Origin: SAR116 cluster bacterium AG-447-A06
GTDB taxonomy: Bacteria; Pseudomonadota; Alphaproteobacteria; Puniceispirillales; Puniceispirillaceae
Assembly (NCBI GenBank): GCA_003212345.1
Contig: QCPZ01000002.1
Location: 62,001-126,000 of the forward strand
Reading direction: 5' to 3'
DNA length: 64,000 nt
Numbering within the stretch: the stretch's first letter is position 1; the number at the start of each line of letters is the position of its first letter. The notes beneath the pieces were generated by a model, which had not been told where the DNA came from, searched no databases, and worked only from the letters and a program-made list of their open reading frames with translations. Shown piece after piece: positions 13,467 to 32,282 of the stretch. The position numbers were made by a program, and so were the translations under genes.

Positions 13467-13470
13467 ACGT

Positions 13471-14112
13471 TTATTGGAGATCCTTCTCAGCCTCACTGAC
13501 AATAGCGGCAAGCGCATCCACAGTATCGACATCGCGCAAAACACTCGAATGATCACATGCTATCAAATGTTGCGCAGCCTTATGGTCATTTAACAATTGT
13601 CGTCCACCACGATCACCGGCAAGGGTTATTAATTCGGGGAAAAAAGTCCTACCCCACAGCACCGGATTACCGCGTTGCCCCTCGAACGCCGGTACTGTAA
13701 TATTGCACGCATGTCCCTCACGACCAATGTGCGTGTGAATAAGAGAATCCAGCAATGTAGATGGCAACAGTGGCATGTCACCAAGCCCAATCATCGCATC
13801 AGTTACATTATTACCGAGAGCTTCTACACCAACTCCCACTGATGATCCCTGCCCGGTAGCATGGTCAGGGTTGAAAACCAATTGCACGGGTAACCCTTCA
13901 AGCGCGGCCGCAACCTTATCCGACTCATATCCAACCACTACAATGATTGGAGATAATGACGTAGCAACAAAGGACTCAACCGCATGCCGGACTAACGGCT
14001 TGCCAGCAATTGATGCCAGCAGCTTATTCACCGAGCCCATCCGGCGTGACGCACCAGCAGCGAGAATAATGCCCGCAACTTTTGCTTCTGCTGGCGGGCT
14101 ATCAACGAGCAT
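13471..14112 (-). CDS. MocA/MobA-like molybdenum cofactor nucleotidyltransferase
   Basis: 213 residues with the nucleotidyltransferase signature IILAAGASRRMGSVNKLL at residues 16-33 and the metal-binding GLGDMPLLP segment around residue 110. MocA adds CMP to molybdopterin to give the MCD cofactor used by xanthine dehydrogenase/CoxL-type enzymes. It lies 54 bases behind xdhC on the same strand, opposite to and facing away from the molybdenum hydroxylase subunits, so it most likely finishes the cofactor for the CoxL-type subunit encoded at 22.2 kb. Precise specificity (CTP or GTP) cannot be read by eye. Confidence 0.82.
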   Translation of the reverse strand: MLVDSPPAEAKVAGIILAAGASRRMGSVNKLLASIAGKPLVRHAVESFVATSLSPIIVVVGYESDKVAAALEGLPVQLVFNPDHATGQGSSVGVGVEALGNNVTDAMIGLGDMPLLPSTLLDSLIHTHIGREGHACNITVPAFEGQRGNPVLWGRTFFPELITLAGDRGGRQLLNDHKAAQHLIACDHSSVLRDVDTVDALAAIVSEAEKDLQ

Positions 14113-14166
14113 AGCGATGAACTAATGTCAGGCCATAGCGGCCCTCATCAGCAAAATTGGACAACT

Positions 14167-15159
14167 TCATTGCAGCGCCCTGCCGCGATAGGCCGCAACA
14201 AGTTCACCCAATACCGAAACCGCAATTTCAGCTGGTGTTTTTGCTCCAATATTTAGCCCTGCTGGCCCTTTAATCCTCGCTGTGTCTGCGTCAGAAAACC
14301 CAGCCTCTGACAATCGTTCAAGGCGCGCCGCATGAGTGCGCCGACTGCCAAGACAGGCAATGTGGAACAAGGGCTTTCCAAGCACCTGATGAAGAGCGGT
14401 ATCATCGATCTTAGGATCATGAGTGAGAGCGACAAGAGATGTCTCGCCATCAAGGCTAATATCACCAAGCGCAATATCAGGCCAATCAAAGACCAACTTT
14501 ATTCCCGGAAATCTCTCGGCAGTGGCAAAAGTGCGTCTTGGATCAATCACCGTAACATCAAAACCAGTTTGAATAGCCATTGAGGCGAGATGCTGGCTTA
14601 TATGAACCGCGCCGATGATTATTAAATGCGGTCGCGGAACCTGCACAAACAAGAACTCATCACCCTCAAGCTTACTTGCCTCGAACACTTTCTCTGACTT
14701 TTGAGCATACCCACCGTTAACAGGAAGGCGAAAACAAACCGTCTGTCGCTCCGCAAGAGATTCCACTCCACTAGTCAAAAGGTGCGGAGGAAACCCCGCC
14801 TCGGACACGGCCATCACCAAAACTGAAATCTTACCACCGCACGACAGCCCAACTTCCCAAGCTGTGGCATCGGCAATGCCAAAGTCCAACCGCTGCGACC
14901 CGCCATTTTTGATCAACTCTTGAGCTGAATCAATAACCGCAGCCTCCACACATCCCCCTGATACCGATCCAGCAATCTGCATATCACCCCGAACCAGCAT
15001 AAGACTGCCTATTTGACGAGGTGACGAGCCCCATGTGCTAATCACAAACGCCAGCGCAAGATCATGCCCAGCAGCGTGCCAGTTGGCTGCCAGCGCAAAC
15101 AACTCATCATCTGCAACCATCATTGCCACACCCGGTTTGCCAGTTGACTGATCACTCAT
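14167..15159 (-). CDS. XdhC/CoxI-family molybdenum hydroxylase maturation factor
   Basis: 330 residues. The N-terminal XdhC_CoxI domain has FVISTWGSSPRQIGSLMLV and AGSVSGGCVEAAVID. The C-terminal XdhC Rossmann domain has HLIIIGAVHISQHLASMA and VTVIDPRRTFATAERFPG, and ends with GPAGLNIGAKTPAEIAVSVLGE. XdhC proteins bind the molybdenum cofactor, promote its sulfuration and insert it into xanthine dehydrogenase-type enzymes. It is divergent from the small subunit gene at 15343, with a 183-base intergenic control region. AAGGAG lies 11 bases before ATG 15159. Confidence 0.88.
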   Translation of the reverse strand: MSDQSTGKPGVAMMVADDELFALAANWHAAGHDLALAFVISTWGSSPRQIGSLMLVRGDMQIAGSVSGGCVEAAVIDSAQELIKNGGSQRLDFGIADATAWEVGLSCGGKISVLVMAVSEAGFPPHLLTSGVESLAERQTVCFRLPVNGGYAQKSEKVFEASKLEGDEFLFVQVPRPHLIIIGAVHISQHLASMAIQTGFDVTVIDPRRTFATAERFPGIKLVFDWPDIALGDISLDGETSLVALTHDPKIDDTALHQVLGKPLFHIACLGSRRTHAARLERLSEAGFSDADTARIKGPAGLNIGAKTPAEIAVSVLGELVAAYRGRALQ

Positions 15160-15276
15160 AGGTTTCGGTCTCCTTTTTTCCGATATGTATGAACCTATCT
15201 TTTGTCGGCATCATCGGCACTTGTTCTCGAGGTACTATTTCGCTATTTTCTATGTTTACAAATACGGTATCCCCAC

Positions 15277-15291
15277 ACAAGATTTTCTTGT
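15277..15291. promoter_or_regulatory. AT-rich inverted repeat in the xdhC/coxS divergent region
   Basis: ACAAGA-ttt-TCTTGT is a perfect 6-base inverted repeat followed on the plus strand by TTTT. It lies between the divergent maturation genes and the small subunit gene, about 50 bases before the latter's start. It could be an operator for a dimeric regulator or a weak transcription stop; the sequence alone does not decide. Confidence 0.3.
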
Positions 15292-15342
15292 TTTTGATTT
15301 AGTTATCTGACGCTGGAAAGCAACCTATAAACGGAGACAATA

Positions 15343-15807
15343 TTGCTGACTGTATCAATGAACGTAAATGGAAACAGTGCAACCCATGAAGTGCCCGACA
15401 ATACGCTGCTGGTTACATTCCTCAGGGAAACATTAGGGCTAACGGGGACCCATGTTGGTTGCGACACCAGCCAATGCGGAGCCTGTATTGTACATCTAAA
15501 TGGCGAGTCTGTGAAATCCTGCAGTCTTTTTGCAGCGCAGGCTGATGGAGCCACAATTACAACTATTGAGGGTATAGCGGATGGTGACACGTTGCACCCG
15601 ATGCAGCAGGCCTTTCATGAAAATCATGGTTTGCAATGCGGTTTTTGTACCCCTGGTATGGTGATGAGCGCGATCGAACTTGTCACGAAAAATAAAAATC
15701 TGACTGAACGTGACATACGTGAGGGTCTTGAGGGCAATATCTGCAGATGTACTGGCTATCACAATATTGTCAAATCAATACAAGCTGCTGCCGAAAAAAT
15801 GAGCTGA
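15343..15807 (+). CDS. Molybdenum hydroxylase 2Fe-2S small subunit (CoxS-like), orphan pair
   Basis: 154 residues with both iron-sulfur clusters of the family: the plant-ferredoxin type ([10 protein letters not shown], then a Cys in VKSC) and the C-terminal four-helix cluster ([10 protein letters not shown] and [10 protein letters not shown]). It passes electrons from the molybdenum centre to the FAD subunit. The start is TTG 15343, because GGAGA lies 6-7 bases upstream; the first ATG (15358) would be too far from this site. The FAD subunit follows 32 bases later, but no large subunit follows. The next genes encode a binding-protein homologue and UbiD. Confidence 0.88.
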
Positions 15808-15839
15808 AAGACAAGGCGTCAATTAGTTAAGGATTGTAA

Positions 15840-16634
15840 ATGTATTCTACCAAATATGTTAAGGCAACGAATGTTAATAAGGCTGCTAGCATCATTGCCG
15901 ATGCCGAAGATGGCAAGTTCTTAGCTGGTGGGATGACATTGATTCCAACATTGAAGCAGCGTCTTGCAAGCCCTGATTTAATCATTGATCTGTCTGACTG
16001 CAAATTGACAGGCATCGAAGATGAAGGGGCCTCAATTCGCATAGGCGCCATGTCGCGCCATATTGATGTTGCCGAGTCTGTGCTTGTTCAAAATGCCATT
16101 CCAGCAATCGCTAATTTGGCATCACAGATTGGTGACCGACAGGTGCGCAACCGTGGCACTATCGGTGGTTCTCTTGCCAATAATGATCCAGCCGCATGCT
16201 ATCCATCTGCACTACTAGGTCTTGGCGGAACCATTCACACGCAGAACCGATCCATCTTAGCCGAGGATTTCTTAACTGGTATGTTCGAAACCGATTTAGA
16301 GGAAGACGAAATTATAATTGGTATAAGCTTTCCAAAACCGGATAAGGCAGCCTATGTGAAATTCCCAAACCCTGCATCACGCTATGCTATGGTTGGAGTG
16401 TTTGTTGCAAAATTCTCCGATGGGGTCAGGGTTGCTGTTACCGGTGCCGGTGAAGATGGTGTATTCCGCGCCAGCAATATTGAAGCGGCCCTTGATGAGA
16501 GCTTCAAAGCAAATTCCATTATCGATGGTTTGGTCTCAGCTGACAATTTAATGAGCGATATTCACGCGTCGGCAGAATATCGGGCGCATCTGATTGGTGA
16601 GATGACCCGCCGCGCCGTCATTGCCTGCGGGTAA
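15840..16634 (+). CDS. Molybdenum hydroxylase FAD-binding medium subunit (CoxM-like), orphan pair
   Basis: 264 residues of the FAD_binding_5/CO_deh_flav_C type. The FAD loops FLAGGMTLIPTLKQRL (about residues 29-44) and RNRGTIGGSLANNDPAACYPSALLGL (about residues 103-128) are conserved, and the C-terminal HASAEYRAHLIGEMTRRA is standard. It accepts electrons from the small subunit and passes them to oxygen, quinone or NAD. AAGGA lies a few bases before ATG. The sequence clearly differs from the second medium subunit at 20.8 kb, so the two are not a recent duplication. Confidence 0.88.
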   Translation: MYSTKYVKATNVNKAASIIADAEDGKFLAGGMTLIPTLKQRLASPDLIIDLSDCKLTGIEDEGASIRIGAMSRHIDVAESVLVQNAIPAIANLASQIGDRQVRNRGTIGGSLANNDPAACYPSALLGLGGTIHTQNRSILAEDFLTGMFETDLEEDEIIIGISFPKPDKAAYVKFPNPASRYAMVGVFVAKFSDGVRVAVTGAGEDGVFRASNIEAALDESFKANSIIDGLVSADNLMSDIHASAEYRAHLIGEMTRRAVIACG

Positions 16635-16648
16635 TTTTGGAGAGTTTT

Positions 16649-17380
16649 TTGACCGTATCGAGTGCCGTTAAACACCAACTCGCACCAAGCGGCATTTTAA
16701 GAGCTGGTATTAACCTTAGTAATTTTCTACTTGTCTCTGGCAGTGGGCCTGATGGAGCCCCTAAAGGGATTTCCCCTGACATTGCGAGGCGCGTTGCCAA
16801 TGCTCTTGACCTGCCTCTGGAGTTTGTCACTTTCGAACGGCCGGGCGAATTAGCCGATGCAGCCGGCAAAAATATTTGGGATATCGGCAACATCGCTTTT
16901 GAGGTTGACCGAGCACACGCTATAGATTTCAGTGATCCCTATGTGTTGATTGAGGCTAATTTCCTGGTTCGTGACAGTGCTAATTTTCATACCAACTCTG
17001 ACATTGACCGGCCTGGCATTAGCATCGGCGTGTCGGAACGCAGCGCTTATGATCTTTGGCTTTGTAATAACTTTAAATTAGCTAGAATTGTAAGATCCCC
17101 ATCAATCCAAATGTCTCACGCCTTATTTTTTGAAAACAAAGTTGATGTGCTAGCGAGCCTAAAACCAAAACTTCTTGAAGAGACAGAAAATAACGAGGGC
17201 ATAAGGCTTATTGACGAACCTTTCACTGCAATCAAACAGTCCATTGGCTTGCCAAAAGAAAAGCAAGACTCTGTTGCTTTCGTAAATGAAGTAATCAGGG
17301 GTTCCATTAGAGACGGCTGGCTTGCAGGTCGGCTTGAAAAACATGGGATGACGTCTAAGCTTAAAATGCCTGTTTATTAA
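16649..17380 (+). CDS. Solute-binding-protein family 3 homologue without signal peptide
   Basis: 243 residues resembling periplasmic amino-acid-binding proteins (SBP_bac_3): ILRAGINLSNFLLVSG, GISPDIARRVANAL, then DIGNIAFEVDRAHAIDFSDPY. There is no signal peptide or lipobox; the protein begins directly with a charged MTVSSAVKHQLAPSG stretch, so it should be cytoplasmic. No permease or ATPase is adjacent. Start TTG 16649 fits the TGGAGAG site 5 bases upstream. It sits between the orphan small/medium subunits and ubiD. Cytosolic relatives of binding proteins can be enzymes, cyclohexadienyl dehydratase being the known case, so an enzymatic role in this pathway is possible but unproven. Confidence 0.75.
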   Translation: MTVSSAVKHQLAPSGILRAGINLSNFLLVSGSGPDGAPKGISPDIARRVANALDLPLEFVTFERPGELADAAGKNIWDIGNIAFEVDRAHAIDFSDPYVLIEANFLVRDSANFHTNSDIDRPGISIGVSERSAYDLWLCNNFKLARIVRSPSIQMSHALFFENKVDVLASLKPKLLEETENNEGIRLIDEPFTAIKQSIGLPKEKQDSVAFVNEVIRGSIRDGWLAGRLEKHGMTSKLKMPVY

Positions 17381-17478
17381 GTTTGGTTGAACACAATGCC
17401 ATCACGCTCTAAAAAGTAAAGGCACTTGCACCCGACTTCTAGCTGTTATCTTGGTCTAATTTATGGAGTTTCAATCTC

Positions 17479-19122
17479 ATGGTCGTCCACCCACCATATA
17501 ATGATCTTCACCTCCACATAGAGGCATTGCGTCAGCATGACCTTCTTGTTGAAGTTGATCGTCCTATCGACAAGGACAGCGAGATGCATTCGCTTGTGCG
17601 CTGGCAATTTATTGGCGGCATGAAAGAAAGTGAGCGCAAAGCGTTTTTGTTTACCAATATACACGATGGCAAAGGGCGCAAATATAAAATGCCAGTTCTT
17701 GTTGGAGGCTTGGCCGCCAACCGGCAAATATACAGTGTTGGAATGGGATGCTCGATTGATGAATTGCAAGACAAATGGGATGAAGCTATCAAAAATCCTA
17801 TCACCCCAAAATTTGTAGATGCAGCACCATGTCATGAAATGATTGAAAAAGGTGTTACCCTATCCCAAGAGGGTAATGGCTTAGATGCATTACCAATACC
17901 AGTGTCAACACCAGGGTTCGATAGCGCCCCAACTTTAAGCGCTGGAAACGTTATCACAAAAGATCCCGAAACAGGGGTGCCAAACATGGGTACATACCGT
18001 TGTGCACTGAAGGCACCGGATCGCCTTGTCGTGCGCATGGCAACACGCGTTGGTGGAGCTGGTGGCTACCAGCACTATCAAAAATGTCAGGCAATGGGTA
18101 TGAAAGAAATGCCAGTTGCCATTGTTCTTGGCTGTCCACCATATGTTGCCTTTATGGGACCTCAGAAATTACCAATTGGTGTAGACGAATTTACCGTTGC
18201 TGGCGGCCTTGCGGGAAAGCCTATCAATGTGACCACTGGTAAAACCGTTGATTTAACGGTCCCAGCTGAAGCAGAGATTATTATTGAGGGTTTTATTGAT
18301 ACGACAAGGGTTGAGCCGGAAGGTCCATTTGGCGAATCACACGGGCATATAGCGCTTGAGGAATATAATATGCCAATGCGGATTACAGCCATTACGCGCC
18401 GAAAAAATGCAATCGTACCCTCTTACATAAGTCAAGTTGCTCCAAGCGAATCAAGCGTGATCAAGCGTATCGCGTATGAACCCCTTTTCCTCCGCCATCT
18501 ACGAAATGATAATAATATAAAGGGGGTGAAGAAAGTCTCGCTGCATGAGCCATTGACAGGATTATTGCGGGTAACTGTACTGACATGCGAGCAAGACATG
18601 CCACATACTGAAGTATGGCGCGCGCTCTACAGCGCAGCATTCTTTAAGGGTGACTGCAGCAAAATTACAATTGCAGTGAATGAAGACATTGATGCTGATA
18701 ACGCGGATGCATTGCTCTGGGCGATGTCTTATCGGACAAACCCGATTAAAGATATAAAAACGTTAGATTATCGTGGGCAAGGCCATGGACCAAAACGTGA
18801 GCATGGTGGTGAAGAAGACTCAACTTTGCTTATTGATGCAACAATGAAATCGCCAATGCCTCCCCTAGCACTTCCTGGAAAGGAACACATGTCCCGCGCC
18901 AAGGAAATCTGGGACGAAATGGGACTTCCAAAACTGAATGTACAGATGCCGTGGCATGGTTATTCTCTCGGTGCTTGGCACAAAATCTGGGATGAAGCTG
19001 GTCACCGTGCTGCAACCGGAGACTATTTAGAAAATGGTCGCATTTCCAAATCACTGTCCGTCGTGGGCTTAAAACCTGAAACCAAGCTTGATCCAGACAG
19101 CGGCAAACCATTCAAATCTTGA
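17479..19122 (+). CDS. UbiD-family prenylated-FMN-dependent decarboxylase
   Basis: 547 residues of the UbiD family. The prFMN/active-site triad is visible: Arg174 in MGTYR, and both glutamates of E-G-P-F-G-E at 281 and 286. The QKCQAMGMKEMPVAIVLGCPP and APSESSVIKRIAYEP segments are also typical. Members reversibly decarboxylate aromatic, heteroaromatic or unsaturated acids. The required cofactor is made by UbiX, encoded in the same island at 26.8 kb. Length and context argue against the ubiquinone pathway enzyme and for a catabolic role. The substrate is unknown; UbiD relatives act on protocatechuate, furan- and pyrrole-carboxylates and others. Confidence 0.88.
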   Translation: MVVHPPYNDLHLHIEALRQHDLLVEVDRPIDKDSEMHSLVRWQFIGGMKESERKAFLFTNIHDGKGRKYKMPVLVGGLAANRQIYSVGMGCSIDELQDKWDEAIKNPITPKFVDAAPCHEMIEKGVTLSQEGNGLDALPIPVSTPGFDSAPTLSAGNVITKDPETGVPNMGTYRCALKAPDRLVVRMATRVGGAGGYQHYQKCQAMGMKEMPVAIVLGCPPYVAFMGPQKLPIGVDEFTVAGGLAGKPINVTTGKTVDLTVPAEAEIIIEGFIDTTRVEPEGPFGESHGHIALEEYNMPMRITAITRRKNAIVPSYISQVAPSESSVIKRIAYEPLFLRHLRNDNNIKGVKKVSLHEPLTGLLRVTVLTCEQDMPHTEVWRALYSAAFFKGDCSKITIAVNEDIDADNADALLWAMSYRTNPIKDIKTLDYRGQGHGPKREHGGEEDSTLLIDATMKSPMPPLALPGKEHMSRAKEIWDEMGLPKLNVQMPWHGYSLGAWHKIWDEAGHRAATGDYLENGRISKSLSVVGLKPETKLDPDSGKPFKS

Positions 19123-19214
19123 TTCATTGCTTATCATATTTGATGGCGTCCCATAACTAACAGTGGACTGTACTCGCAAAACTAAGACACATTAGCATTG
19201 CAGGTTGAATGGCG

Positions 19215-19763
19215 CTAAGCTCTCTCAGCCTCTCGGTCGAGGATTGCATTGGCAATAAGTTGAATATTTTTCATATGTTCTGACGTCAAAGCTATTTTAC
19301 TTTGAGCATCAACTACCATTGTTAAAACAGCTGTCAAGTTAGACAGGTTGGGTGGGATATCGCTTGGGGGCACTTGCGCCGTAGCGTCCTCCATCATATT
19401 CAATTGGATCTTTTCAGCAGATAGCTCAGCTGCTTTAACACTCAGACGTAGTGCTTCCCCTTTATCAATCTGTACCGGATAGGACCCCGATTTTAATTTT
19501 TGGCGAACCACTCGTAAGGACTGAACAACATCACGTTGCCAAGGACTTGTCTGCTTTTGCAAAGCGCTGAGTATTGCGGGATCAAAACATTTACCGTTAA
19601 CCACCAAAAAACCAGCACAAAAAAGCAAAGGGACATCAACATCACAAGATTCTTGCAAAAACAAGCAAGCAGCTGATACGCCGTTTTTTTGATAAATGGA
19701 AACCGCAAAATTCCACAAACTAGATTCTAGAATCTCTTTATTATCAGCTATGTTTACATTCAC
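19215..19763 (-). CDS. TIGR02444/DUF2390-family protein
   Basis: 182 residues. The N-terminal part (SLWNFAVSIYQKNGVSAACLFLQESCDVDVPLLFCAGFL) matches the TIGR02444/DUF2390 pattern of a W-x-F start, a conserved LQ and D-V-x-x-L-L-F. No biochemical function is established for this family. GTG 19763 is chosen because AGGTGG lies 5 bases upstream. It is the only minus-strand gene within the catabolic island, so it is probably an unrelated insertion between two transcription units rather than part of the pathway. Confidence 0.65.
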   Translation of the reverse strand: MNVNIADNKEILESSLWNFAVSIYQKNGVSAACLFLQESCDVDVPLLFCAGFLVVNGKCFDPAILSALQKQTSPWQRDVVQSLRVVRQKLKSGSYPVQIDKGEALRLSVKAAELSAEKIQLNMMEDATAQVPPSDIPPNLSNLTAVLTMVVDAQSKIALTSEHMKNIQLIANAILDREAERA

Positions 19764-20154
19764 TATCCACCTGCCGAAAATATGATGTAAATAAATCTAA
19801 AAACTTTTTGATGTTAGGGTCTAAATCCAAGAGTGTCACTCTGAGAGATGGGTGAATTTGTTTTGGCCCGTAAGATCGACCACAGTATTTATTCTTTCAA
19901 GGATACCATGATGTAACCTTTCTTTTTGGTCTGTATCCAGAGAATTGGCTTTGTCTGAATTGTAAGTTAACATTTACAGCAATCTGACAACCTAGACGAA
20001 AATTCAAATTGCCAGATGTAACGTGAAGTTATCTTATTTATATTGAAACACACCCTTCTTGAGATTTAGAATTTTGGTAAATAATGGATTAAGGTTCTCA
20101 ATAAACTCATAAATCAACAATAGCAAATTTGATTAGCAAGACAGGGAGCAGACC
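19764..20154. promoter_or_regulatory. Divergent intergenic region with palindrome
   Basis: No open reading frame of interest was found in this 391-base AT-rich gap between the TIGR02444 gene and the cupin gene. It should carry the promoter for the second half of the catabolic island. An odd-length palindrome AGAGTG-T-CACTCT lies at 19830-19842 and is a candidate operator. No clear pair of -35 and -10 boxes could be fixed by eye. Confidence 0.35.
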
Positions 20155-20742
20155 ATGCACAGATCCTACCGCCGTGTTGTGACTGGCCATGACAAAAATG
20201 GCGCCGCAATCATTGAGAGTGATCAGGTTGCCACCCAGACCTTGGAACGATCAAACCGACCAGGCGTAAGGCTGACAAACTTCTGGATAACAGATCAAAC
20301 ACCAGCTGAATATGACGGACCAACTGAAACCTGCCTGGGTCCCCTAACTCTTAAACCACCGGCACGGGGTTCAGTATTCCGCTGTGTTGAATTCATGCCT
20401 GAAGATCCAGAAGTAATGGCGCAATTATCGAGTGAGGATGGGGCTGCTGCCTTTGCGGAAATGGGCGCCGGTGATAATGTTGTCCGAGGGGGTAGACACC
20501 CATGGATGCATCGGACAGACTCAGTAGATTACGGCATCGTCCTAAACGGAGAAATTTGGATGTTGATGGATAATGAGAAGAATGATGTTTTATTAAAAGC
20601 CGGTGATGTTGTTGTTCAGCGCGGAACAAATCACGCATGGGCAAACCGAGGGACTGAACCTTGTACTATTATGTTTGTTCTTATAGATGGAGTAACATCA
20701 AGTGGTGAGGGCAAAGGTACACCTCTGCGCAATGGCAACTAA
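20155..20742 (+). CDS. Cupin-domain protein
   Basis: 195 residues with a single C-terminal cupin_2 barrel (about residues 115-180). Motif 1 is H-P-W-M-H-R-T-D-S-V-D-Y with G-I-V-L-N-G-E after it; motif 2 is G-D-V-V-V-Q-R-G-T-N-H-A-W-A-N. Three histidines could bind a metal, though the usual motif-1 glutamate is replaced by Asp. AGGGAG lies 7 bases before ATG. It starts the second transcription unit of the island. Its role (isomerase, hydroxylase, dioxygenase or sensor) cannot be read from the sequence. Confidence 0.8.
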   Translation: MHRSYRRVVTGHDKNGAAIIESDQVATQTLERSNRPGVRLTNFWITDQTPAEYDGPTETCLGPLTLKPPARGSVFRCVEFMPEDPEVMAQLSSEDGAAAFAEMGAGDNVVRGGRHPWMHRTDSVDYGIVLNGEIWMLMDNEKNDVLLKAGDVVVQRGTNHAWANRGTEPCTIMFVLIDGVTSSGEGKGTPLRNGN

Positions 20743-20836
20743 ATAACACATCAATTCAATTTTCTAAATTAATGGCTGTAAATATGATTGCTTTAAAGAC
20801 CCCAGAATTTTTTATGGCTAACACAGGTAGTTTGTA

Positions 20837-21709: not shown

Positions 21710-22233
21710 TCCAAGTTTCAATAGAGGTTAATGGCAAGACAGTTACAGCTGAAGTAGAACCGCGCCTCACACTCCTGGACTTCATCAGGGATGTTGCTGG
21801 CCTTAAGGGCACCCACGCTGGATGTGAGCATGGTGTTTGCGGTGCATGCACCGTTTTAGTTGAAGGCAATGCGATCCGATCATGCCTTGTGCTTGCAGTG
21901 CAGGCTGATGAACAAGAGGTAATCAGCATAGAGGGCGTTGGCGGCGATCTAGGGCGTTCTGGCGAACTCAGCATTGTGCAAGACGCCTTTTGCGAGGCGC
22001 ACGGCCTTCAATGCGGTTATTGCACACCGGGAATGGTGCTCGTGGCCGAGGCGTTACTTGCTGACACGCCGAATCCAACCGAGGGTGATATACGCGAGGC
22101 CATTTCAGGCAACATTTGCCGTTGCACTGGTTATGTACAGATTGTCGAAGCAGTGATGTTGGCAGCAGATCGTCTTGCGAACCGCAATTATAAAAGCAAG
22201 CCAGGCCAACCTTCCGACCAGACGCTGGGCTGA
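21706..22233 (+). CDS. Molybdenum hydroxylase 2Fe-2S small subunit (CoxS-like), complete set
   Basis: 175 residues. Both clusters are intact: G-C-E-H-G-V-C-G-A-C-T-V with a downstream RSC, and LQCGYCTPGMV with [12 protein letters not shown] short unconserved tail after residue 160 carries extra basic residues. It is sandwiched between its medium and large partners (overlap 4 bases, then 8-base gap), so a 1:1:1 complex is expected in the cytoplasm. Confidence 0.92.
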   Translation: MIQVSIEVNGKTVTAEVEPRLTLLDFIRDVAGLKGTHAGCEHGVCGACTVLVEGNAIRSCLVLAVQADEQEVISIEGVGGDLGRSGELSIVQDAFCEAHGLQCGYCTPGMVLVAEALLADTPNPTEGDIREAISGNICRCTGYVQIVEAVMLAADRLANRNYKSKPGQPSDQTLG

Positions 22234-22241
22234 GGTAAAAA

Positions 22242-24620
22242 ATGGTCGAAAAAAAATACAAGTTCATCTCTCAACCGCGCCACCCGTCAGAGAATCGGCG
22301 CTTTGTTGCTGGCCGTGGTAACTTTGTTGCAGACATAGACCGCCCCAACATGTTGCACGTAGCACCTCTGTCATCGCACTACCCAGCTGCTATTATCAAC
22401 AATATCGACATATCGGAAGCAATGATGATGGACGGCGTCATTGACGTAATTACTGGTGCTGAAATTGGAGCTGCCATTCAACCATTAATGAACGGTCTCG
22501 ACACACCAAAGGTTCAACGCTTTCCGCTCGCGGTCAACCGTGTGAGGTACGCTGGTGAATGGGTCTGCGCGGTAGTGGCTGAATCCCGCGCGATTGCGGA
22601 GGATGCACTTGAAAAAATTATCATTGACGCAACTCCCCAACCATTTGTTTTGGATGCAGAAGAAGCACTTCTGCCCTCCAGCCCACCAGTGCATCCGGAA
22701 CATGGCAGCAATATACTTCTCGATCGGAAATTTGTTTGGGGAACGGTTGGTGAGGATTTTGTCAATGCCGAGCATAACCTGTCATTTAGTGTAATATGGG
22801 GACGTAATTCAACGGTCCCGATCGAGACCTTTGGTGTTGTCGCTGAATGGAATGGATGGGATAATATCCTCGACGTGTGGGCATCGGTTCAGATGCCAAA
22901 ATACTCAGACCAAATTGCGCGCTGCCTGAACCTTCCCGGCAATGCTGTGCGAGTTCATTACGATGTCGATGTTGGCGGTAGTTATGGAGTTAAACGCGGC
23001 ATAAAACACGCAACTTTGATTGGCTATATAGCGCGCAAGCTTGGACGGCCTATTCGCTTCATTGAGGATCGGTTAGAAAATATGCGAGCCGGTGATGCTC
23101 ATGGACCAGAACGGAAATTTAATGTAGAGGTCGCATTCGAGTCTGATGGGAATGTGCGATCAATGAGAATGCGAGCACTCGATAATGCTGGCGCTTATGC
23201 CGGACGTGCACCATTCCAGCTTGGCAAACCAATCAGTGCGATTGTTGGGCCCTATCAGATCAATTCGGTTTCCTATCATGCAATTTCAGTCACCTCCAAC
23301 AAAACTGTCCAAGAAGCAGTTCGTGGATTCGGCCAGGCACCAACGAATTACGCAATCGAAACAGCAATGGATCGAGTTGCTTCCTTTTTAAAAATGGATC
23401 GACTCGCTTTACGTCAGCGTAATTTGATCCGAAGTGACCAATTCCCCTATTTGATTCCGAGCGGAAGCACATACGACAGTGGTGACTATCACGCGGTGAT
23501 TGATAAAGTGCTGGCAGCTGCGGATTACAAGACACTTCTTGTAAAAAGAGACCATCTACGTGATGAGGGTATGATGGCAGGCATCGGCATTGCGGCTTGC
23601 CTTGAGCCAAGTGGGGGGAACTCCTCGTTCGAGCCCTTGCTTAATGAAGCGAACAAAACTTCGACTTGGATGGAGTCTTGTCAAATAAATGTTGATGGAC
23701 TGGGACATTTGACTGCACGAATTCATACTACCTCATCGGGACAGGGACATGAAACACTGGTATCAACTGTACTTGGCGAAGTTTTAGAAATTGATCCGTC
23801 TAACATTCGTATAACTCGACCGAACTCATTAGAAAGTCTGCCTGGAAACTCGCCTGTCGGCAGTCGGATGGCAATTATGCTCGGTGGTGCGGCAGCGCGG
23901 AGCGCAGAAAAACTAAAAGCAAAATTGATTAAGATCGCGGCGCATAGCCTTGGTATTGACGCAGAAAAACTAACCTATGCCGGAGGGAACGTTTTAGCAC
24001 CCGATGGACGGAAGCATACATGGCAGGATGCAGTTGAGCTTGCTCATCGACAGTTCCATAATTTGCCGGAAGGCATGGATCCAGGTCTGGCGGCGTTCGA
24101 CATCATGCAAGTGCCAACGGGAAATGCGCTACCAGTGGATGGAAAGGTACACATGTATCCATGCTATTCATTTGAGTTTCATCTGGTTTTGCTGGCTTTT
24201 GATCCAGTAATTGGCCGGCCAGAAATTCATTCTTATACGGTTGGGCATGATTGCGGCACTGTTATCAATCCTGCAATCGTCAGCGGCATGACTTATGGCG
24301 GTATTGCCCATGGAATTGGCGCTGCATTACTCGAGGAGTTTGCCTATGATCCTAACGGCCAGTTAATGACACAAAGCTTTCTTGATTATCTGATGCCATC
24401 ATCACACGAAGTACCACCAATTCAGATCGTCAAACATTGTACCCCTTCGCCACATACGGTTTTTGGGCAAAAAGGATCCGGTGAAAGTGGATACCTGGGA
24501 TCCCCAGCCGCAATATCGAGTGCAATCAATGACGCTGTTTCTGCGTTAGATATACGTTTTGAAAAACTGCCAATCCGAATGAGCGCAATTAGTGATGCAA
24601 TTGCCAACAAGTCAGCATAG
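22242..24620 (+). CDS. Molybdenum hydroxylase large subunit (xanthine dehydrogenase/CoxL family)
   Basis: 792 residues, carrying the molybdenum site. The loop corresponding to the CODH active site reads V-R-G-F-G-Q (360-365), not the AYxCSFR of form I CO dehydrogenase, so it is not a CODH. The catalytic glutamate is Glu748 in G-S-G-E-S-G-Y. Other conserved parts are GGSYGVKRGIKHATLIGYIA and SGQGHETLVSTVLGEVL. The enzyme should hydroxylate a carbon next to nitrogen or oxidise an aldehyde using water oxygen. It is the only large subunit in the window although two S/M pairs are present. Confidence 0.9.
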   Translation: MVEKKYKFISQPRHPSENRRFVAGRGNFVADIDRPNMLHVAPLSSHYPAAIINNIDISEAMMMDGVIDVITGAEIGAAIQPLMNGLDTPKVQRFPLAVNRVRYAGEWVCAVVAESRAIAEDALEKIIIDATPQPFVLDAEEALLPSSPPVHPEHGSNILLDRKFVWGTVGEDFVNAEHNLSFSVIWGRNSTVPIETFGVVAEWNGWDNILDVWASVQMPKYSDQIARCLNLPGNAVRVHYDVDVGGSYGVKRGIKHATLIGYIARKLGRPIRFIEDRLENMRAGDAHGPERKFNVEVAFESDGNVRSMRMRALDNAGAYAGRAPFQLGKPISAIVGPYQINSVSYHAISVTSNKTVQEAVRGFGQAPTNYAIETAMDRVASFLKMDRLALRQRNLIRSDQFPYLIPSGSTYDSGDYHAVIDKVLAAADYKTLLVKRDHLRDEGMMAGIGIAACLEPSGGNSSFEPLLNEANKTSTWMESCQINVDGLGHLTARIHTTSSGQGHETLVSTVLGEVLEIDPSNIRITRPNSLESLPGNSPVGSRMAIMLGGAAARSAEKLKAKLIKIAAHSLGIDAEKLTYAGGNVLAPDGRKHTWQDAVELAHRQFHNLPEGMDPGLAAFDIMQVPTGNALPVDGKVHMYPCYSFEFHLVLLAFDPVIGRPEIHSYTVGHDCGTVINPAIVSGMTYGGIAHGIGAALLEEFAYDPNGQLMTQSFLDYLMPSSHEVPPIQIVKHCTPSPHTVFGQKGSGESGYLGSPAAISSAINDAVSALDIRFEKLPIRMSAISDAIANKSA

Positions 24621-24655
24621 TTTTGTTCCCCATCAATTAGGAAACAACCGGTGAT

Positions 24656-25636
24656 ATGATTATAGACAGCCACGCGCATTTTGTCCCACCACGTCTTCTT
24701 GACGCTATCCGCGATATGAATTCGCAGTTTCCATCAATTGAGTTGATAAAAGGCGAAAATAATAGTTTTGGTTTTTCCTTTGCCGGCCATAAGTCAACGC
24801 GTCCAGTGAGTAAACTGCTGTCCGACACTGATGGCCGGCTAGACTGGATGAATACAAACGGAATTGATATGCAAGTCATTGGCGGCTGGCTTGACATGTT
24901 TGGCTATGAAATACCGGCTGATGAGGGGCAACGCTGGTCACAATTAATCAACCATCACTTAAAAGAATTTTGTGCTGAAAACCCCCGCTTTTTACCGCTT
25001 GCAAGTTTGCCAATGCAAAATGGCAAAGCGGCTGCGAAAGTTTTGGACTCTGCGCATTCTAGTGGGTTTAAGGGAGCAATGATAGGAACGCAGCCAAAGG
25101 GCAAGGGTGGAACGCTGGATGATCCAGATCTACAGCCATTTTGGGAGTCGGCGCATCGGAACGGCTCAATTCTGTTTATCCATCCAGTGTTTGATTCTGG
25201 TGATGAGCGAGTGAACGATTTTGGCATGAATAACGCTGTTGGCCGCATTACCGACACTTTAATCGCCATTTCAAGGATCATTTATTCAGGTCACGTTGAA
25301 ACTTATCACAATGCAAAAATCGTTATTGGTATCGGAGGGTCAGCATTGCCATTTGTGATTGGCCGGATGATGCGCAACTATGAATTGCACAAACACCAAC
25401 TTGCTGATCCATCAAAGGCACTATCGCTGCTTTATTATGATACTTTGGTACACGACTCATCGGCGCTAGCGTTGTTGATAAAAAAGGTTGGTGTTAACAG
25501 GATTATGCTTGGCTCGGATATGCCATTTCCAATCGGTGATCCTATGCCACGCAATATACTTGATCACGTTCAGTTGACTAAAACTGAGCGCTCTATGCTT
25601 GAGACCAATGTTGCAAAGGCACTTTTTGACCTTTAA
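24656..25636 (+). CDS. ACMSD-type amidohydrolase-2 family protein with altered metal site
   Basis: 326 residues of the amidohydrolase-2 family that includes ACMSD, gamma-resorcylate decarboxylase and LigW/LigJ. It has the N-terminal H-x-H (His6, His8), His176 in LFIHP and Asp288 in MLGSDMP. The position of the family's catalytic histidine in A-H-G-G-G-x-x-P-F is isoleucine here (Ile226 in I-G-I-G-G-S-A-L-P-F). The rest of that segment aligns well, so this is a true substitution. Catalysis must therefore differ, or the protein has another role. It follows the large subunit by 35 bases in one operon. Confidence 0.82.
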   Translation: MIIDSHAHFVPPRLLDAIRDMNSQFPSIELIKGENNSFGFSFAGHKSTRPVSKLLSDTDGRLDWMNTNGIDMQVIGGWLDMFGYEIPADEGQRWSQLINHHLKEFCAENPRFLPLASLPMQNGKAAAKVLDSAHSSGFKGAMIGTQPKGKGGTLDDPDLQPFWESAHRNGSILFIHPVFDSGDERVNDFGMNNAVGRITDTLIAISRIIYSGHVETYHNAKIVIGIGGSALPFVIGRMMRNYELHKHQLADPSKALSLLYYDTLVHDSSALALLIKKVGVNRIMLGSDMPFPIGDPMPRNILDHVQLTKTERSMLETNVAKALFDL

Positions 25637-25666
25637 CTATTCCACTATCAGAAAAAGCAATTCTTC

Positions 25667-26116
25667 ATGAACCTAAATTTAACTGGCACAGAATCCATCC
25701 AAACAAACCCCAGTCGGCTATGGGAGTCAGTGATTGATCCCGCTGTATTGCAACGGTCTATTCCTGGCTGTGTCAGCATGGATGAGCTAGCTCCCGGGGA
25801 ATATACCATTACGCTTGAATTAAAGGTTGCAGCCGTTGGCGGTAATTTTGAGGGCAGCGTGAAACTATCAGAGATGAACCCACCAAACAGTTGCCTTATC
25901 AATGTATCGGGAAATGGAACCCTTGGCGTCGGCAAGGGCACGGCCCGCGTTACGATCACCGCGAATGAAGATGATACCGCGCGAATCACCTATGAAGCAG
26001 ATGGCGAGGTTAGCGGCCTTGTGGCAGGTGTTGGACAGCGAGTTTTAATGGGTGTCGCTAAACATCTTGTCCGTCAGTTTTTTACAGCGCTTAAAAAAGA
26101 ATTTGAAGCGAATTAG
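25667..26116 (+). CDS. CoxG-like SRPBCC-fold protein (copy 1)
   Basis: 149 residues of the CoxG family (CO dehydrogenase subunit G, a START/SRPBCC fold). The pattern ESVIDPAVLQRSIPGCVSMDEL, the central SGNGTLGVGKGTARVTIT and YEADGEVSGLVAGVGQRVL are typical. CoxG proteins accompany molybdenum hydroxylases and help assembly or membrane association in CO oxidisers. It starts 30 bases after the amidohydrolase gene and has a paralogue next door. Confidence 0.85.
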   Translation: MNLNLTGTESIQTNPSRLWESVIDPAVLQRSIPGCVSMDELAPGEYTITLELKVAAVGGNFEGSVKLSEMNPPNSCLINVSGNGTLGVGKGTARVTITANEDDTARITYEADGEVSGLVAGVGQRVLMGVAKHLVRQFFTALKKEFEAN

Positions 26117-26306
26117 CCTTTAAAAAAATGCTATTCTTGAACTTCTTCTAAATTATTTCTTAATAGGAATATTCCAGTTTACCCAACAAAACATAAATTC
26201 TTTTCAGTTGCTTGAGACGCCTACAAGTATATTCTTAAGGGTAAATAAGCGGCTAGGATTGTTATTCGAACCGCCAGAAATAAAATTCGCAAACCAAGGA
26301 GTAACG

Positions 26307-26753
26307 ATGAACATAGCGGATGAACTCAGCATTCCAGGCAGAATTGAGACAGTTTATGCTAATCTAATCGATCCAGAGGTTCTCAAACGTTGCATTCCGG
26401 GCTGTCAAGAATTGGAAAAAACAAGTGATACCGATTATGCAGCGAAGGTTATTCTGAAAATTGGTCCAGTGAAGGCAAAATTTTCTGGCAATGTGACCTT
26501 GGATCTGAGTGCCGCCCCACGCAGTTTGTCGCTGGCGGGGGCTGGTGACGGCGGCCTCGCAGGTTTTGCTAAAGGCGGCGCAGATGTTGAACTCATTGAT
26601 GAGGGCAATGAGACCACTTTGCGTTACAAGGCCCGGGCCGAAACTGGCGGAAAAATTGCTCAGTTGGGAGCTAGGTTGATTGAAAGTACTGCAAAAAAAC
26701 TTTCAAAAAGTTTTTTCAGTAACTTTGAAAAAATTATGCTTAATGAGAAGTAA
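26307..26753 (+). CDS. CoxG-like SRPBCC-fold protein (copy 2)
   Basis: 148 residues when started at ATG 26307, which has AAGGAG 6 bases upstream; the frame can be extended to 26208 but that part is not conserved. ANLIDPEVLKRCIPGCQELEK, the AGAGDGGLAGFAKGGADVEL loop and YKARAETGGKIAQLGARLI are the family hallmarks. It is related to, but not a close copy of, the preceding gene. Two CoxG-like genes match the two small/medium subunit pairs in the island, which may mean one per complex (inference). Confidence 0.85.
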   Translation: MNIADELSIPGRIETVYANLIDPEVLKRCIPGCQELEKTSDTDYAAKVILKIGPVKAKFSGNVTLDLSAAPRSLSLAGAGDGGLAGFAKGGADVELIDEGNETTLRYKARAETGGKIAQLGARLIESTAKKLSKSFFSNFEKIMLNEK

Positions 26754-26826
26754 TTGTAAAAAATATCCGAGCGACGGATCACTGTAACTAATGTTTATCG
26801 TTTGGTAATGAAAGAGATAGAGAGAG

Positions 26827-27399
26827 ATGCGGCGACTAATTGTGGCAATAACTGGTGCTTCTGGCGTGATCTATGGGATCCGTGCGCTGGAACACCTGCG
26901 CCAAATTGAAGATGTTGAAACACATGTGATTGTCACACCGTCCGCATACCGCACAGCAATGGCCGAAGTAAATTATACCCCAGAACAAATCAAAGCGCTT
27001 GCAGATCACTTATATAACCACAAGGATATTGGTGCAGCGATTTCATCAGGTTCGTTTCGGACCAATGGCATGATTGTCGCACCCTGTTCGATAAAAACGT
27101 TGAGCGCAATCGCCAACTCTTTTAATGCTGAACTAATTGCGCGATCAGCCGATGTTTGCATGAAGGAACGTCGACGGGTTGTGCTGATGTTGCGCGAAAC
27201 ACCATTTCATGCAGGGCATATTCGGCTAATGGATCAAGCTACGCAAAGCGGTGCCATTATCATGCCACCCGTTCCCGGTTTTTACACCCGGCCGCAAACG
27301 CTAGACGATGTAATTGACCAAAGTGTTGGCCGTGCGTTGAATCTTCTTGATATCAATTTACCGTCTGTAAAAAGCTGGACAGGGTCTGGTGTTGAATAG
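26827..27399 (+). CDS. ubiX: UbiX-family flavin prenyltransferase
   Basis: 190 residues. The flavin-binding start LIVAITGASGVIYGIRALE, the S-G-S-F-R-T-N-G-M-I-V-A-P-C-S segment and the C-terminal R-R-V-V-L-M-L-R-E-T-P are all family signatures. UbiX joins dimethylallyl phosphate to FMN to make prenylated FMN, the cofactor of UbiD decarboxylases. Its location with the UbiD gene at 17.5 kb indicates a dedicated supply for this pathway. GAGAGAG lies directly before ATG. Confidence 0.9.
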   Translation: MRRLIVAITGASGVIYGIRALEHLRQIEDVETHVIVTPSAYRTAMAEVNYTPEQIKALADHLYNHKDIGAAISSGSFRTNGMIVAPCSIKTLSAIANSFNAELIARSADVCMKERRRVVLMLRETPFHAGHIRLMDQATQSGAIIMPPVPGFYTRPQTLDDVIDQSVGRALNLLDINLPSVKSWTGSGVE

Positions 27400-27527
27400 A
27401 GATCACAAATTGAAAAAAGCCAAGCCCGTTATCCCACCAGATGGGCCAAGGCCCGACTACACTACACCCAACTAACAATTACTCAAGCGGACACATCGGC
27501 TTGTTTCGGCTTTGCTATTCTTTTTAA

Positions 27528-28439
27528 ATGCTGGTAGGTCAAAAAACAAAACAACAAGCGATTATTTCGATGAAAAAGCAAAATTTATCAAATACTCCAT
27601 TAGATGCTGCGGCACGTCAGGCTGCTCCGGCTGTGATATGTTATCCCACCACTGACTTGCCTCAACCTGACATGGTCAATTTAGAGCGCGCGAGAATCAA
27701 TCTTACCAAAATTAGCGAAACCATTGTTCCACCCCGTGATGCTCGCTGTTTTGAAGTGCAAAAAGGCCATTTTTTTAGGATTAACAGTATCGATGGCCCC
27801 CAAGTCGGCGATTTAAACATCTGGTCAAAGACCAACCTTGCAGAACATTTTTACGCAGGAAAGACACGAGCAATACACGGAACGCACCTATCCACCGGCG
27901 ATCGTATGTGGTCCAGCTTTCCCTCTATGCGCCCCCTAGCGACAATCAGTCATGACACCCTAGACTGGTATGGATGGGACGATAGTGGCGGGTCGGTACA
28001 TGATGTTATTGGCACTCGATGTGACCCCTACACAGCGAAGCTTTTGAGTGGTATCGACTATCATCACTGCTGTCATTCGAATTTGATCCGCGCGCTTTCC
28101 GCACATTGTAAGCTTGATTATGCAAAGGCCGAGCCTTTGGTTCATGATGTATTGAATGTTTTTATGTGCACCGGCTTTACAAAAGACACACACCAATATT
28201 TCATGAAAGCAAGTCCAGTCAGGCCGGGCGATTTTATCGAATTCTTTGCTGAGACAGATTTAATTTGCGGCCTGTCTGCCTGTCCAGGTGGCGATTGTTC
28301 ATCCGAACACTCATCAGATAATGCTGTATGCTATCCACTTCTTGTTGAAGTTTTTCATTCCTCTAGCGCAGCGTTAAATGATTTTCCATATTTACCAAAA
28401 TCACAATATAAACTCTCACGCCCAGATGGTTCCAAATAA
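27528..28439 (+). CDS. DUF1989 (urea carboxylase-associated family) protein
   Basis: 303 residues with the DUF1989 domain from about residue 50: IVPPRDARCFEVQKGHFFRI, VGDLNIWSKTNLAEHF, then CDPYTAKLLSG, HHCCHSNLIRAL and FMCTGFTKD. The cysteines and histidines of these motifs could bind metal. Related DUF1989 proteins (CgdA/CgdB) act as carboxyguanidine deiminase in guanidine breakdown, and others lie near urea carboxylase. Its place behind ubiX hints that the pathway liberates a nitrogen compound, but this is inference. The first 40 or so residues are poorly conserved, and ATG 27570 is an alternative start. Confidence 0.78.
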   Translation: MLVGQKTKQQAIISMKKQNLSNTPLDAAARQAAPAVICYPTTDLPQPDMVNLERARINLTKISETIVPPRDARCFEVQKGHFFRINSIDGPQVGDLNIWSKTNLAEHFYAGKTRAIHGTHLSTGDRMWSSFPSMRPLATISHDTLDWYGWDDSGGSVHDVIGTRCDPYTAKLLSGIDYHHCCHSNLIRALSAHCKLDYAKAEPLVHDVLNVFMCTGFTKDTHQYFMKASPVRPGDFIEFFAETDLICGLSACPGGDCSSEHSSDNAVCYPLLVEVFHSSSAALNDFPYLPKSQYKLSRPDGSK

Positions 28440-28649
28440 GCCAAGGGTAGGACCAATCTCAACATTTATAATAAGCAGTTAAAACCCGCTCTAGTAACTT
28501 TAATTGACCGTAATTCCAAAGGTGACTTCAATAACTCAAACGAGACTTTCATTCTTATTACTAAAATCAACAATGCTAAGTGATAAAATCATCATTTTTG
28601 CTAAAATCGCAAAATAATTTTGATCCACCTTAATCAATTGAAAAAAATG

Positions 28650-29579: not shown

Positions 29580-29585
29580 GAAATT

Positions 29586-29616
29586 GGGGGGGGGCTGGAA
29601 ATCCGGCCCCCCCTTT
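29586..29616 (+). terminator. GC-rich hairpin between proteorhodopsin and crtE
   Basis: Nine G, then CTGG-AAAT-CCGG and seven C form a stem of about 11 pairs (one G-U pair) with a four-base loop, followed by only three T. It begins 6 bases after the opsin stop and 63 bases before crtE. Its weak T tract suggests partial termination or a 3' stabiliser rather than a full stop, which would set opsin transcript above carotenoid enzyme transcript. Confidence 0.65.
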
Positions 29617-29648
29617 ACCACTATCAGCTTAATAGATAGAGGCATCCA

Positions 29649-32249: not shown

Positions 32250-32282
32250 TCATGCATTGGCATGGTGAAGAATTGGTAAAAA

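Follow-up and report, generated by a model that had tools for sequence, protein, structure and literature searches.

Putative pairing of a molybdenum hydroxylase with UbiD/UbiX for a heteroaromatic acid in a composite locus of a SAR116 bacterium

Positions 13471–28439 of the window (the entire 64,000 nt stretch analyzed) encode a composite island, in which a gene cassette is located inside an older Cox/proteorhodopsin locus that no longer has a large subunit of its own. The host belongs to SAR116 (Ca. Puniceispirillum group) and its assembly is 80% complete. The cassette is read as a CoxMSL/ACMSD-like core with a UbiD/UbiX feeder acting on a heteroaromatic acid, a reading to which we give a probability of about 0.5. 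The gene set probably breaks down a ring acid by adding oxygen derived from water and removing carbon dioxide.

Gene content and composite structure of the island

The island has the following open reading frames:

13471–14112, minus strand: MobA/MocA-like molybdenum cofactor nucleotidyltransferase (PF12804, 2.2e-37), assigned to the older locus
14167–15159, minus strand: XdhC/CoxI-type maturation protein (PF13478 and PF02625), assigned to the older locus by comparison with sister genomes
15343–15807, plus strand: CoxS1, the [2Fe-2S] subunit (Fer2/Fer2_2) of a second hydroxylase; the corresponding large subunit is missing
15840–16634, plus strand: CoxM1, FAD subunit of the orphan CoxS1/CoxM1 pair (FAD_binding_5/CO_deh_flav_C)
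16637–17380, plus strand: SBP_bac_3 protein (PF00497)
17479–19122, plus strand: UbiD-family prFMN decarboxylase (PF01977, 5.5e-50)
19215–19763, minus strand: DUF2390/TIGR02444 protein, candidate UbiX/prFMN-associated protein (DUF2390 and TIGR02444 models)
20155–20742, plus strand: small cupin (Cupin_2, PF07883)
20837–21709, plus strand: CoxM2, FAD subunit of the conserved hydroxylase (FAD_binding_5/CO_deh_flav_C)
21706–22233, plus strand: CoxS2, [2Fe-2S] subunit of the conserved hydroxylase (Fer2/Fer2_2)
22242–24620, plus strand: CoxL, molybdenum subunit without the CO dehydrogenase loop (MoCoBD_1/MoCoBD_2)
24656–25636, plus strand: ACMSD-fold Amidohydro_2 enzyme with Ile where ACMSD has its active-site His
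25667–26116, plus strand: CoxGa, CoxG-like member of the conserved operon and probably a link to the membrane (PF06240, 2e-25)
26208–26753, plus strand: CoxGb, a second CoxG (PF06240, 1.3e-29)
26827–27399, plus strand: UbiX flavin prenyltransferase (NF004685, 255.7 bits, cut-off 188; TIGR00421 above cut-off)
27528–28439, plus strand: DUF1989 protein (PF09347, 2.6e-46), assigned to the older locus beside proteorhodopsin and not to the cassette

Each Pfam match is above Pfam's gathering score, and all gene families named in the original prediction are present. The DUF2390/TIGR02444 gene is the one gene that was absent from its list. The island proteins fall short of most NCBIfam equivalog cut-offs, e.g. 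TIGR03310, the top model for the MobA/MocA-like protein, scores under its cut-off; the UbiX and TIGR02444 models do reach theirs. The genome (80% complete) has one PF01977 protein and five MoCoBD_1 proteins. Intergenic spacings from CoxM2 through CoxS2 and CoxL to the ACMSD-like gene are −4, 8 and 35 bp, which is an operon-like arrangement. The minus-strand DUF2390 gene sits between the upstream UbiD and this gene series, thus the island appears to form more than one transcript.

The corresponding locus of sister genomes (MATE...DUF1989-proteorhodopsin) contains a different Cox operon and lacks the cassette; a MobA/MocA-like ortholog is found there at the same place. CoxS1 flanks another CoxL in genomes G019, G021 and G029 (loop AYRGAGR, as read in G019), i.e. 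the large subunit of CoxS1/CoxM1 is retained at the locus in relatives and is missing here. In G025 (locus L107), another cassette groups CoxGb with UbiX and CoxS1/CoxM1, and an ortholog of the DUF1989 gene is near this CoxL in only one other locus, L021, which is from a near-identical genome. Since the sister-genome locus carries its other Cox operon without the cassette, the DUF1989, CoxS1/CoxM1, XdhC and MocA-like genes are no evidence for the pathway, although the XdhC and MocA-like proteins may continue to serve CoxL in cofactor maturation. The nitrogen step previously proposed for DUF1989 is therefore not supported, and the two CoxS/CoxM pairs do not form a single system. Dropping these inherited neighbors takes away genes that are misleading for substrate prediction.

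Linkage and conserved residues of the cassette enzymes

The CoxM-CoxS-CoxL core with the ACMSD-fold amidohydrolase occurs repeatedly among alpha- and betaproteobacteria. CoxL (at least 53% identity) is near an orthologous UbiD in 31 of 59 UbiD loci, within the fetched stretch of each locus, and the adjacency is found repeatedly, in distant lineages. In a class-wide sample of 385 alphaproteobacterial genomes, with UbiD counted at 60% identity or more, all seven UbiD genomes also have this CoxL (hypergeometric p = 1.5e-11, kinship ignored); with the home genus excluded the count is 5/5 (p = 7e-9, kinship again ignored). Across 35 loci (595 pairs), the pairwise distances between UbiD sequences correlate with those between CoxL sequences (r = 0.77). 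The predicted pairing of UbiD with a hydroxylase is thus supported as an evolutionary link with the molybdenum hydroxylase and amidohydrolase.

Counting against a tight pairing, 7 of the 14 CoxL genomes in the same sample are without this UbiD. In the home genus the two genes are apart in 9 of the 12 genomes having both (on different contigs in eight, 267 kb apart in one); CoxL occurs without UbiD in G024 (100% complete) and G028, and UbiD without CoxL in G022. The separation within the genus goes part of the way towards the unrelated positions that the original prediction named as evidence against it. Other SAR116 UbiD genes have MmgE/PrpD and TauE as neighbors. Eleven of the 59 UbiD loci are from outside SAR116 and lack CoxMSL, ACMSD-like, CoxG, UbiX and other CoxL genes; five of these eleven are shorter than 8 kb. 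Cupin relatives (by tblastn) are near UbiD in L039, L046, L048, L058 and L077.

CoxL and its partners display the features of a xanthine oxidase-type molybdenum hydroxylase, i.e. MoCoBD domains, FAD and 2x[2Fe-2S] subunits, and a catalytic Glu, E748, which is invariant (17/17) and aligns with that of quinoline 2-oxidoreductase (Qor). The CoxL family profile has its best match with Qor (1t3q, 3.9e-146), narrowly ahead of CO dehydrogenase, an order that is reversed with the single window sequence (CO dehydrogenase 8uem 3.3e-100, Qor 4.5e-96). The profile likeness is consistent with a heteroaromatic substrate. The loop is YRGVGF in 1t3q, whereas it is VRGFGQ here (17/17). An aerobic CO dehydrogenase is not supported, as the Cys-containing active-site loop CSFR, present at this position in CO dehydrogenases 8uem and 1ffu, is absent.

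The E-R-E catalytic motif is a hallmark of UbiD prFMN decarboxylases. UbiD displays R174, E281 and E286, together with N169, in 26/26 sequences, and its PF01977 match is over cut-off, as expected of the family. Its nearest solved relative is 6h6x (3.8e-48), which we take to be HmfF; Tyr333 (26/26) aligns with R304 of 6h6x. In the available portion of PMC7976604 the HmfF specificity residue is H297. This is His296 of chain 6h6x by our own count, and it aligns with Ser325 of UbiD (26/26). This replacement speaks against identity with the HmfF furandicarboxylate decarboxylase.

The amidohydrolase is similar to ACMSD (2-amino-3-carboxymuconate-6-semialdehyde decarboxylase) in fold (Foldseek 1.1e-27), in four metal ligands (H6, H8, H176, D288) and in two substrate arginines (R49, R237), all conserved in 23/23 sequences. 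For human ACMSD, the accessible part of PMC9021598 describes the metal ligands and Arg47/Arg235 and lists His224 among the zinc ligands. Unlike ACMSD, the window protein has Ile226 at this active-site position (H228 in Pf, His224 in human), and in the alignment the ACMSD tryptophan is replaced by Tyr, Phe or Lys. Ile is found in 24 of 44 loci and His in 20. CoxG occurs at 21 of these 44 loci, every one of which encodes the Ile form, and at none of the 20 His-bearing loci. This restriction suggests that the chemistry or the electron route has changed.

The SBP_bac_3 protein, previously noted as a binding-protein homolog, does belong to the PF00497 family, but it is closer to cyclohexadienyl dehydratases (best PDB match 5jos, 2.9e-14) than to binding proteins (best 4f3p, 6.2e-5). 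No obvious signal peptide was seen by eye, and no permease gene is beside it.

Proposed reactions and alternative explanations

The gene content, conserved linkage, composite locus and catalytic residues of UbiD and CoxL are observed, and from these a set of reactions, their order, a ring opening and a membrane link can be proposed. UbiD, with prFMN made by UbiX, would form the feeder module, taking one carboxylate off a heteroaromatic acid that carries more of them. CoxM2-CoxS2-CoxL and the ACMSD-fold amidohydrolase would be the conserved unit, a molybdenum hydroxylase with a metal-dependent lyase or hydrolase. CoxMSL would then hydroxylate a ring carbon beside the heteroatom, taking the oxygen from water, and CoxG would help its electrons on their way towards the membrane. 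The product, a lactone/lactam tautomer, would be opened hydrolytically, in some relatives putatively by a PcaD-like enol-lactonase and in one putatively by an enamidase homolog. No ring-opening enzyme was identified in the window. Among 49 CoxL loci, 10 have a PcaD-like hydrolase (that of L032 scores 227.9 bits with TIGR02427, under the 255.85 cut-off) and 7 have TctC/TctAB relatives. L101 has the enamidase homolog (2vun, 5.3e-106) and PF06684, and L099 and L100 have TRZ/ATZ-type amidohydrolases. As a guess, the substrate is a pyridine, pyrrole or furan di- or tricarboxylate.

A pyridine-carboxylate pathway resembling that of picolinate, where PicA is a Mo enzyme, is possible but somewhat unlikely; UbiD would here take the extra carboxylate off a pyridine dicarboxylate. 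The sections of PMC10142695 available describe cooperation of the dehydrogenase PicA with the amidohydrolase-family decarboxylase PicC in Alcaligenes faecalis JQ135, a precedent for two such enzymes on a heteroaromatic acid, and mention no UbiD. The Qor likeness of CoxL and the L099–L101 genes agree with this route, however an enamidase-type gene is in only 1 of 49 CoxL loci, the ACMSD-like amidohydrolase of this branch is without the active-site His, later pic steps are not recognized here, and 2,5-dihydroxypyridine dioxygenase was not recognized in the operons read by eye. The hmf-type furan-2,5-dicarboxylate/2-furoate route appears less probable still. It shares its logic with the island, since hmfABCDE/hmfFGH of Cupriavidus basilensis HMF14 combine a three-subunit Mo-type dehydrogenase core with a UbiD/UbiX feeder, the core being reported as the better conserved of the two (PMC6604932, PMC12064950, both in part). 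A molybdenum hydroxylase with UbiD/UbiX is thus already described for furans; the present gene set is conserved and still uncharacterized. The 6h6x relationship fits a furan, but Ser325 and Tyr333 do not; ACMSD-fold and CoxG proteins are added here, and the hmf gene table, as far as the sources were available, has no amidohydrolase of the ACMSD-like kind. No CoA ligase or furoyl-CoA synthetase was recognized by eye in the window or in eight UbiD-linked loci (L029, L032, L059, L074, L043, L046, L051, L069). CoA-related genes do adjoin some loci, which agrees with an hmf-type route and makes a CoA route for the acid possible: AMP-binding ligases are near CoxM2 in L095 and L097, which lack UbiD, CoA_transf_3 genes are neighbors in L093, L084 and L027, and in L099 an ECH_1 gene is between CoxL and the ACMSD-like gene.

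UbiD/UbiX and the molybdenum hydroxylase could also act on different substrates and share only a regulon or a cassette-collecting catabolic hot spot. The locus does behave as a hot spot, with other CoxL and UbiD paralogs there in G025 and G017, and the separations in the genus and the CoxL genomes without UbiD agree; the adjacency repeated in distant lineages and the 7/7 co-occurrence argue against this, and we consider it somewhat unlikely. That UbiD/UbiX serve ubiquinone synthesis and are in the island by chance is highly improbable. This is the sole UbiD found in the (80% complete) genome, but of the 61 genomes in the taxonomic family 48 lack PF01977, which suggests indirectly that ubiquinone synthesis there does without this UbiD, and Rhodobacter capsulatus makes ubiquinone aerobically without UbiD, according to the portion of PMC10626278 available.

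The DUF2390 protein and significance of the module

DUF2390 co-occurs with UbiX in 118 of 123 genomes and is less than 500 bp from it in 38. It is a candidate prFMN accessory protein. The same role is held by LpdD, a small UbiX/UbiD-associated protein described, in the part of PMC10865409 available, as a prFMNH2-binding chaperone resembling Pba3/4. By that description the two may differ, as the DUF2390 predicted model is helical (pLDDT 94.4); it has no Foldseek PDB match with E < 0.001. The authors of the same source suggest that further, as yet unidentified prFMN chaperones exist, and the DUF2390-UbiX link, if functional, bears on this question.

The core-and-feeder reading may tentatively be extended to an undescribed alpha-/betaproteobacterial pathway, in which a heteroaromatic polycarboxylate would be broken down by a Qor-like hydroxylase together with a prFMN decarboxylase, the His-less ACMSD-fold enzyme of the CoxG branch would do new chemistry, and DUF2390 would be a dedicated UbiX/UbiD accessory protein, the second kind of prFMN chaperone after LpdD. 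The long gene list is reduced to a conserved module, which is testable in the cultured relatives Aquabacter spiritensis DSM 9035, Arsenicitalea aurantiaca 42-50 and Lutibaculum baratangense AMV1.

Gene content and the conserved core

Every gene that the original prediction listed for positions 13471–28439 is found there, as judged from open reading frames and profile matches. A DUF2390 gene was missing from that list. The genome around the window is 2.0 Mb in 69 contigs and is 80% complete. Its closest named relatives are SAR116/Ca. Puniceispirillum records, and the UbiD protein is 99% identical to that of AG-390-P06. Additional features are:

7623–10136, minus strand: large DAO + GCV_T fusion of the dimethylglycine/sarcosine dehydrogenase type (Pfam), upstream of the island
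19215–19763, minus strand: DUF2390, whose gene in many alphaproteobacteria lies next to UbiX in convergent orientation (also at L111:8182–8721 and L027:5857–6390 in relatives)
28800–33206: proteorhodopsin (Bac_rhodopsin, 6.7e-43), then the carotenoid genes crtE, crtI and crtB (crt names read by eye)

A scan with UbiD peptide patterns, at one genome per species, gave 59 loci. The patterns restrict the set to close relatives, and several of the loci are short. A CoxL ortholog (at least 53% identity) is inside the fetched stretch of 31 of the 59. Three further loci (L034, L040, L070) have other parts of the cassette, i.e. of CoxMSL, the ACMSD-like amidohydrolase, CoxG, UbiD and UbiX, and four (L031, L036, L064, L065) have a different Mo hydroxylase large subunit (27%–29% identity). 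Ten of the remaining 21 are SAR116 or SAR116-like by identity; in these the cassette is at another place or was not observed. CoxMSL, ACMSD-like, CoxG and UbiX sequences are all absent from the stretches of the other 11, five of which are shorter than 8 kb; a cupin relative is present in two of these 11 (L058, L077). Gene calls in high-GC records are rough, and gene names at relatives' loci were read by eye unless Pfam-based.

Nine loci (L028, L029, L030, L032, L033, L035, L059, L068, L075) share the order CoxM/CoxS/CoxL, ACMSD-like, CoxG, PcaD-like hydrolase, UbiX, UbiD, with NIPSNAP upstream and, in most, genes for a MocR-type regulator, a transporter, a ThDP enzyme and DUF2390 around them. 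By record title they are mostly Rhodobacterales and Rhizobiales; L028 is labelled Halothiobacillus. Plasmid records display UbiD relatives in 11 cases, every one below 60% identity, and no CoxL at E 1e-150, thus the close orthologs have no plasmid copy in that collection.

Among 385 alphaproteobacterial genomes, UbiD (at least 60% identity) is found in seven, all of which have CoxL, and CoxL is found in 14 overall. Six of the seven carry the two genes on a single contig, no more than about 12 kb from each other; 267 kb separates them in G019, a genome of the window's genus. The original prediction treated the island as one catabolic unit for hydroxylation and decarboxylation of an aromatic or N-heterocyclic acid. 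Synteny at the 31 loci with CoxL near UbiD supports a link between these two enzymes, but less so in the genus, where 12 of 16 genomes have both genes and only three (G000, G017, G027) have them together, although in these drafts genes on different contigs are no proof of distance. On these co-occurrence and linkage counts we take CoxL and the ACMSD-like protein to be the core and UbiD an optional partner. This resembles the hmf furan pathway, where hmfFGH is less conserved than hmfABCDE according to an excerpt of PMC6604932.

Several loci show other arrangements. The UbiD of a SAR116 MAG is split across two frames (L066:10001–11639), a possible frameshift or assembly error. L101:13714–18857 has three tandem UbiD paralogs; their contig also carries the CoxMSL/ACMSD-like operon described above, together with genes for an FAD monooxygenase and an enamidase homolog. 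In G025 (L084:207–6307) and G019 (L085:723–6807) the CoxMSL-ACMSD-like-CoxG operon adjoins an apparent thiosulfate-oxidation (Sox-like) set, with a ThDP enzyme after the operon; Pfam shows Oxidored_molyb and 5′-nucleotidase-like proteins in the set.

DUF2390 and UbiX

In the same 385 genomes DUF2390 is found in 123, UbiX in 167 and both in 118 (Fisher p 8.5e-52, ignoring phylogeny). DUF2390 occurs without UbiX in only five genomes. Less than 500 bp separates the two in at least 38 genomes, which span 22 families, and in 36 of these they are convergent; gaps run between profile matches, not gene ends, and adjacency counts are lower bounds. The distance in the window is 7 kb. This linkage to UbiX suggests that DUF2390 may be a prFMN accessory protein. 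The proposal is weakened by the 49 genomes with UbiX and no DUF2390, by the 14 control genomes (UbiX matches in nine, DUF2390 in one), and by the 106 genomes that have both positions among the matches listed, 55 of which have no linkage within 12 kb (different contigs in 47, one contig but more than 12 kb apart in eight).

Nine residues are invariant in 32 sequences of the family: W17, Y24, C33, Q37, W75, R84, R87, E113 and E117. The predicted model is confident and helical, and has no clear relative in the PDB (Foldseek best E 0.58); VIA-align gives a Z of about 8, a value that by the tool's own guidance is frequent among helical models. LpdD, the prFMNH2-binding chaperone, and other prFMN proteins are not among the matches listed by either program. 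A PADLOC check for a defence gene gave no match for DUF2390, and literature searches for DUF2390/TIGR02444/PF09523 returned two papers, both with unrelated titles.

Enzymes and proposed chemistry

For the CoxL family profile the top match is quinoline 2-oxidoreductase (3.9e-146), followed by CO dehydrogenase (1.3e-142); the single window sequence reverses the order (8uem, 3.3e-100, then 1t3q, 4.5e-96). The protein does not have the CSFR loop typical of CO dehydrogenase. The ACMSD-like amidohydrolase has the ACMSD fold (E 1.1e-27). In 23 of 23 sequences it keeps the four metal ligands and the two substrate arginines, and 13 of the 23 have Ile in place of the active-site His. In a count of 44 loci, all 21 with CoxG have the Ile form and all 20 with the His form lack CoxG; three carry Ile and have no CoxG in the stretch examined. 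L020 and L112 are one contig in this count. Other loci also overlap between collections: L023/L091 and L027/L092 have contigs of equal length, and L021 is probably G027. L093, which has stops in the matched stretch, was excluded from the count and from the alignment (A1). The SBP_bac_3 protein shows a likeness to cyclohexadienyl dehydratase; checked by PADLOC as a defence gene, it gave no match.

A PcaD-like hydrolase neighbours CoxL in 10 of 49 CoxL loci (the L032 copy scores 227.9 bits with TIGR02427, below the cut-off) and an enamidase homolog in one (2vun, 5.3e-106); the window encodes neither. Enzymes of both families open hydroxylated-ring tautomers, thus we favour a route in which ring hydroxylation would be followed by hydrolytic opening. 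A CoA-thioester variant may also apply, since CoA-related genes are near some relatives (CoA_transf_3 in L093, L084 and L027, AMP-binding proteins in L095 and L097, ECH_1 in L099). The CoA ligases and CoA-transferases encoded close to certain relatives would also fit an hmf-type furan pathway, which is nevertheless unlikely. The best solved match of UbiD is 6h6x (3.8e-48), which we take to be HmfF, the decarboxylase of that pathway. Ser325 and Tyr333 of UbiD align with His296 and Arg304 of the 6h6x chain in 26 of 26 sequences. In HmfF this histidine, numbered H297, has a role in furan specificity according to an excerpt of PMC7976604, whereas UbiD here has Ser325.

Any substrate named for this route is a guess. 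Homarine was considered and dropped, there being no homarine degradation paper among the literature matches listed. Searches found no paper on SAR116 with UbiD, no title describing a UbiD and molybdenum hydroxylase module among the matches listed, and no title on a module of UbiD, xanthine dehydrogenase and amidohydrolase. CoxG homologs serve as membrane anchors (excerpt of PMC11962113), so the hydroxylase may be linked to the membrane via CoxG.

The locus in SAR116 genomes

The MATE-to-proteorhodopsin stretch (window 12060–28800; L104, L105, L106, L107, L112) displays different Cox/UbiD cassettes across SAR116 genomes. Sister genomes G019, G021 and G029 have the order MATE, MocA-like, XdhC, (other genes), CoxS1, another CoxL, CoxM1, (others), DUF1989, proteorhodopsin, crtE, crtI, crtB, and the cassette is absent from this locus in all three. 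The CoxL at this locus in G019 has an AYRGAGR loop and matches CO dehydrogenase best (6.7e-179). Its identity to the CoxL of the window is 28%; of the five large subunits found in the window's 80%-complete genome, the closest to it reaches 38%. Further CoxL and UbiD paralogs are at the same spot in G025 and G017.

Because sister genomes show other contents at the same locus, the island looks like a hot spot, with the cassette now inside an older Cox operon whose own large-subunit gene has been lost. We infer that change ran in this direction, and that DUF1989, which had been placed at the nitrogen end of the predicted route, would be an older resident of the island together with CoxS1, CoxM1, XdhC and the MocA-like gene.
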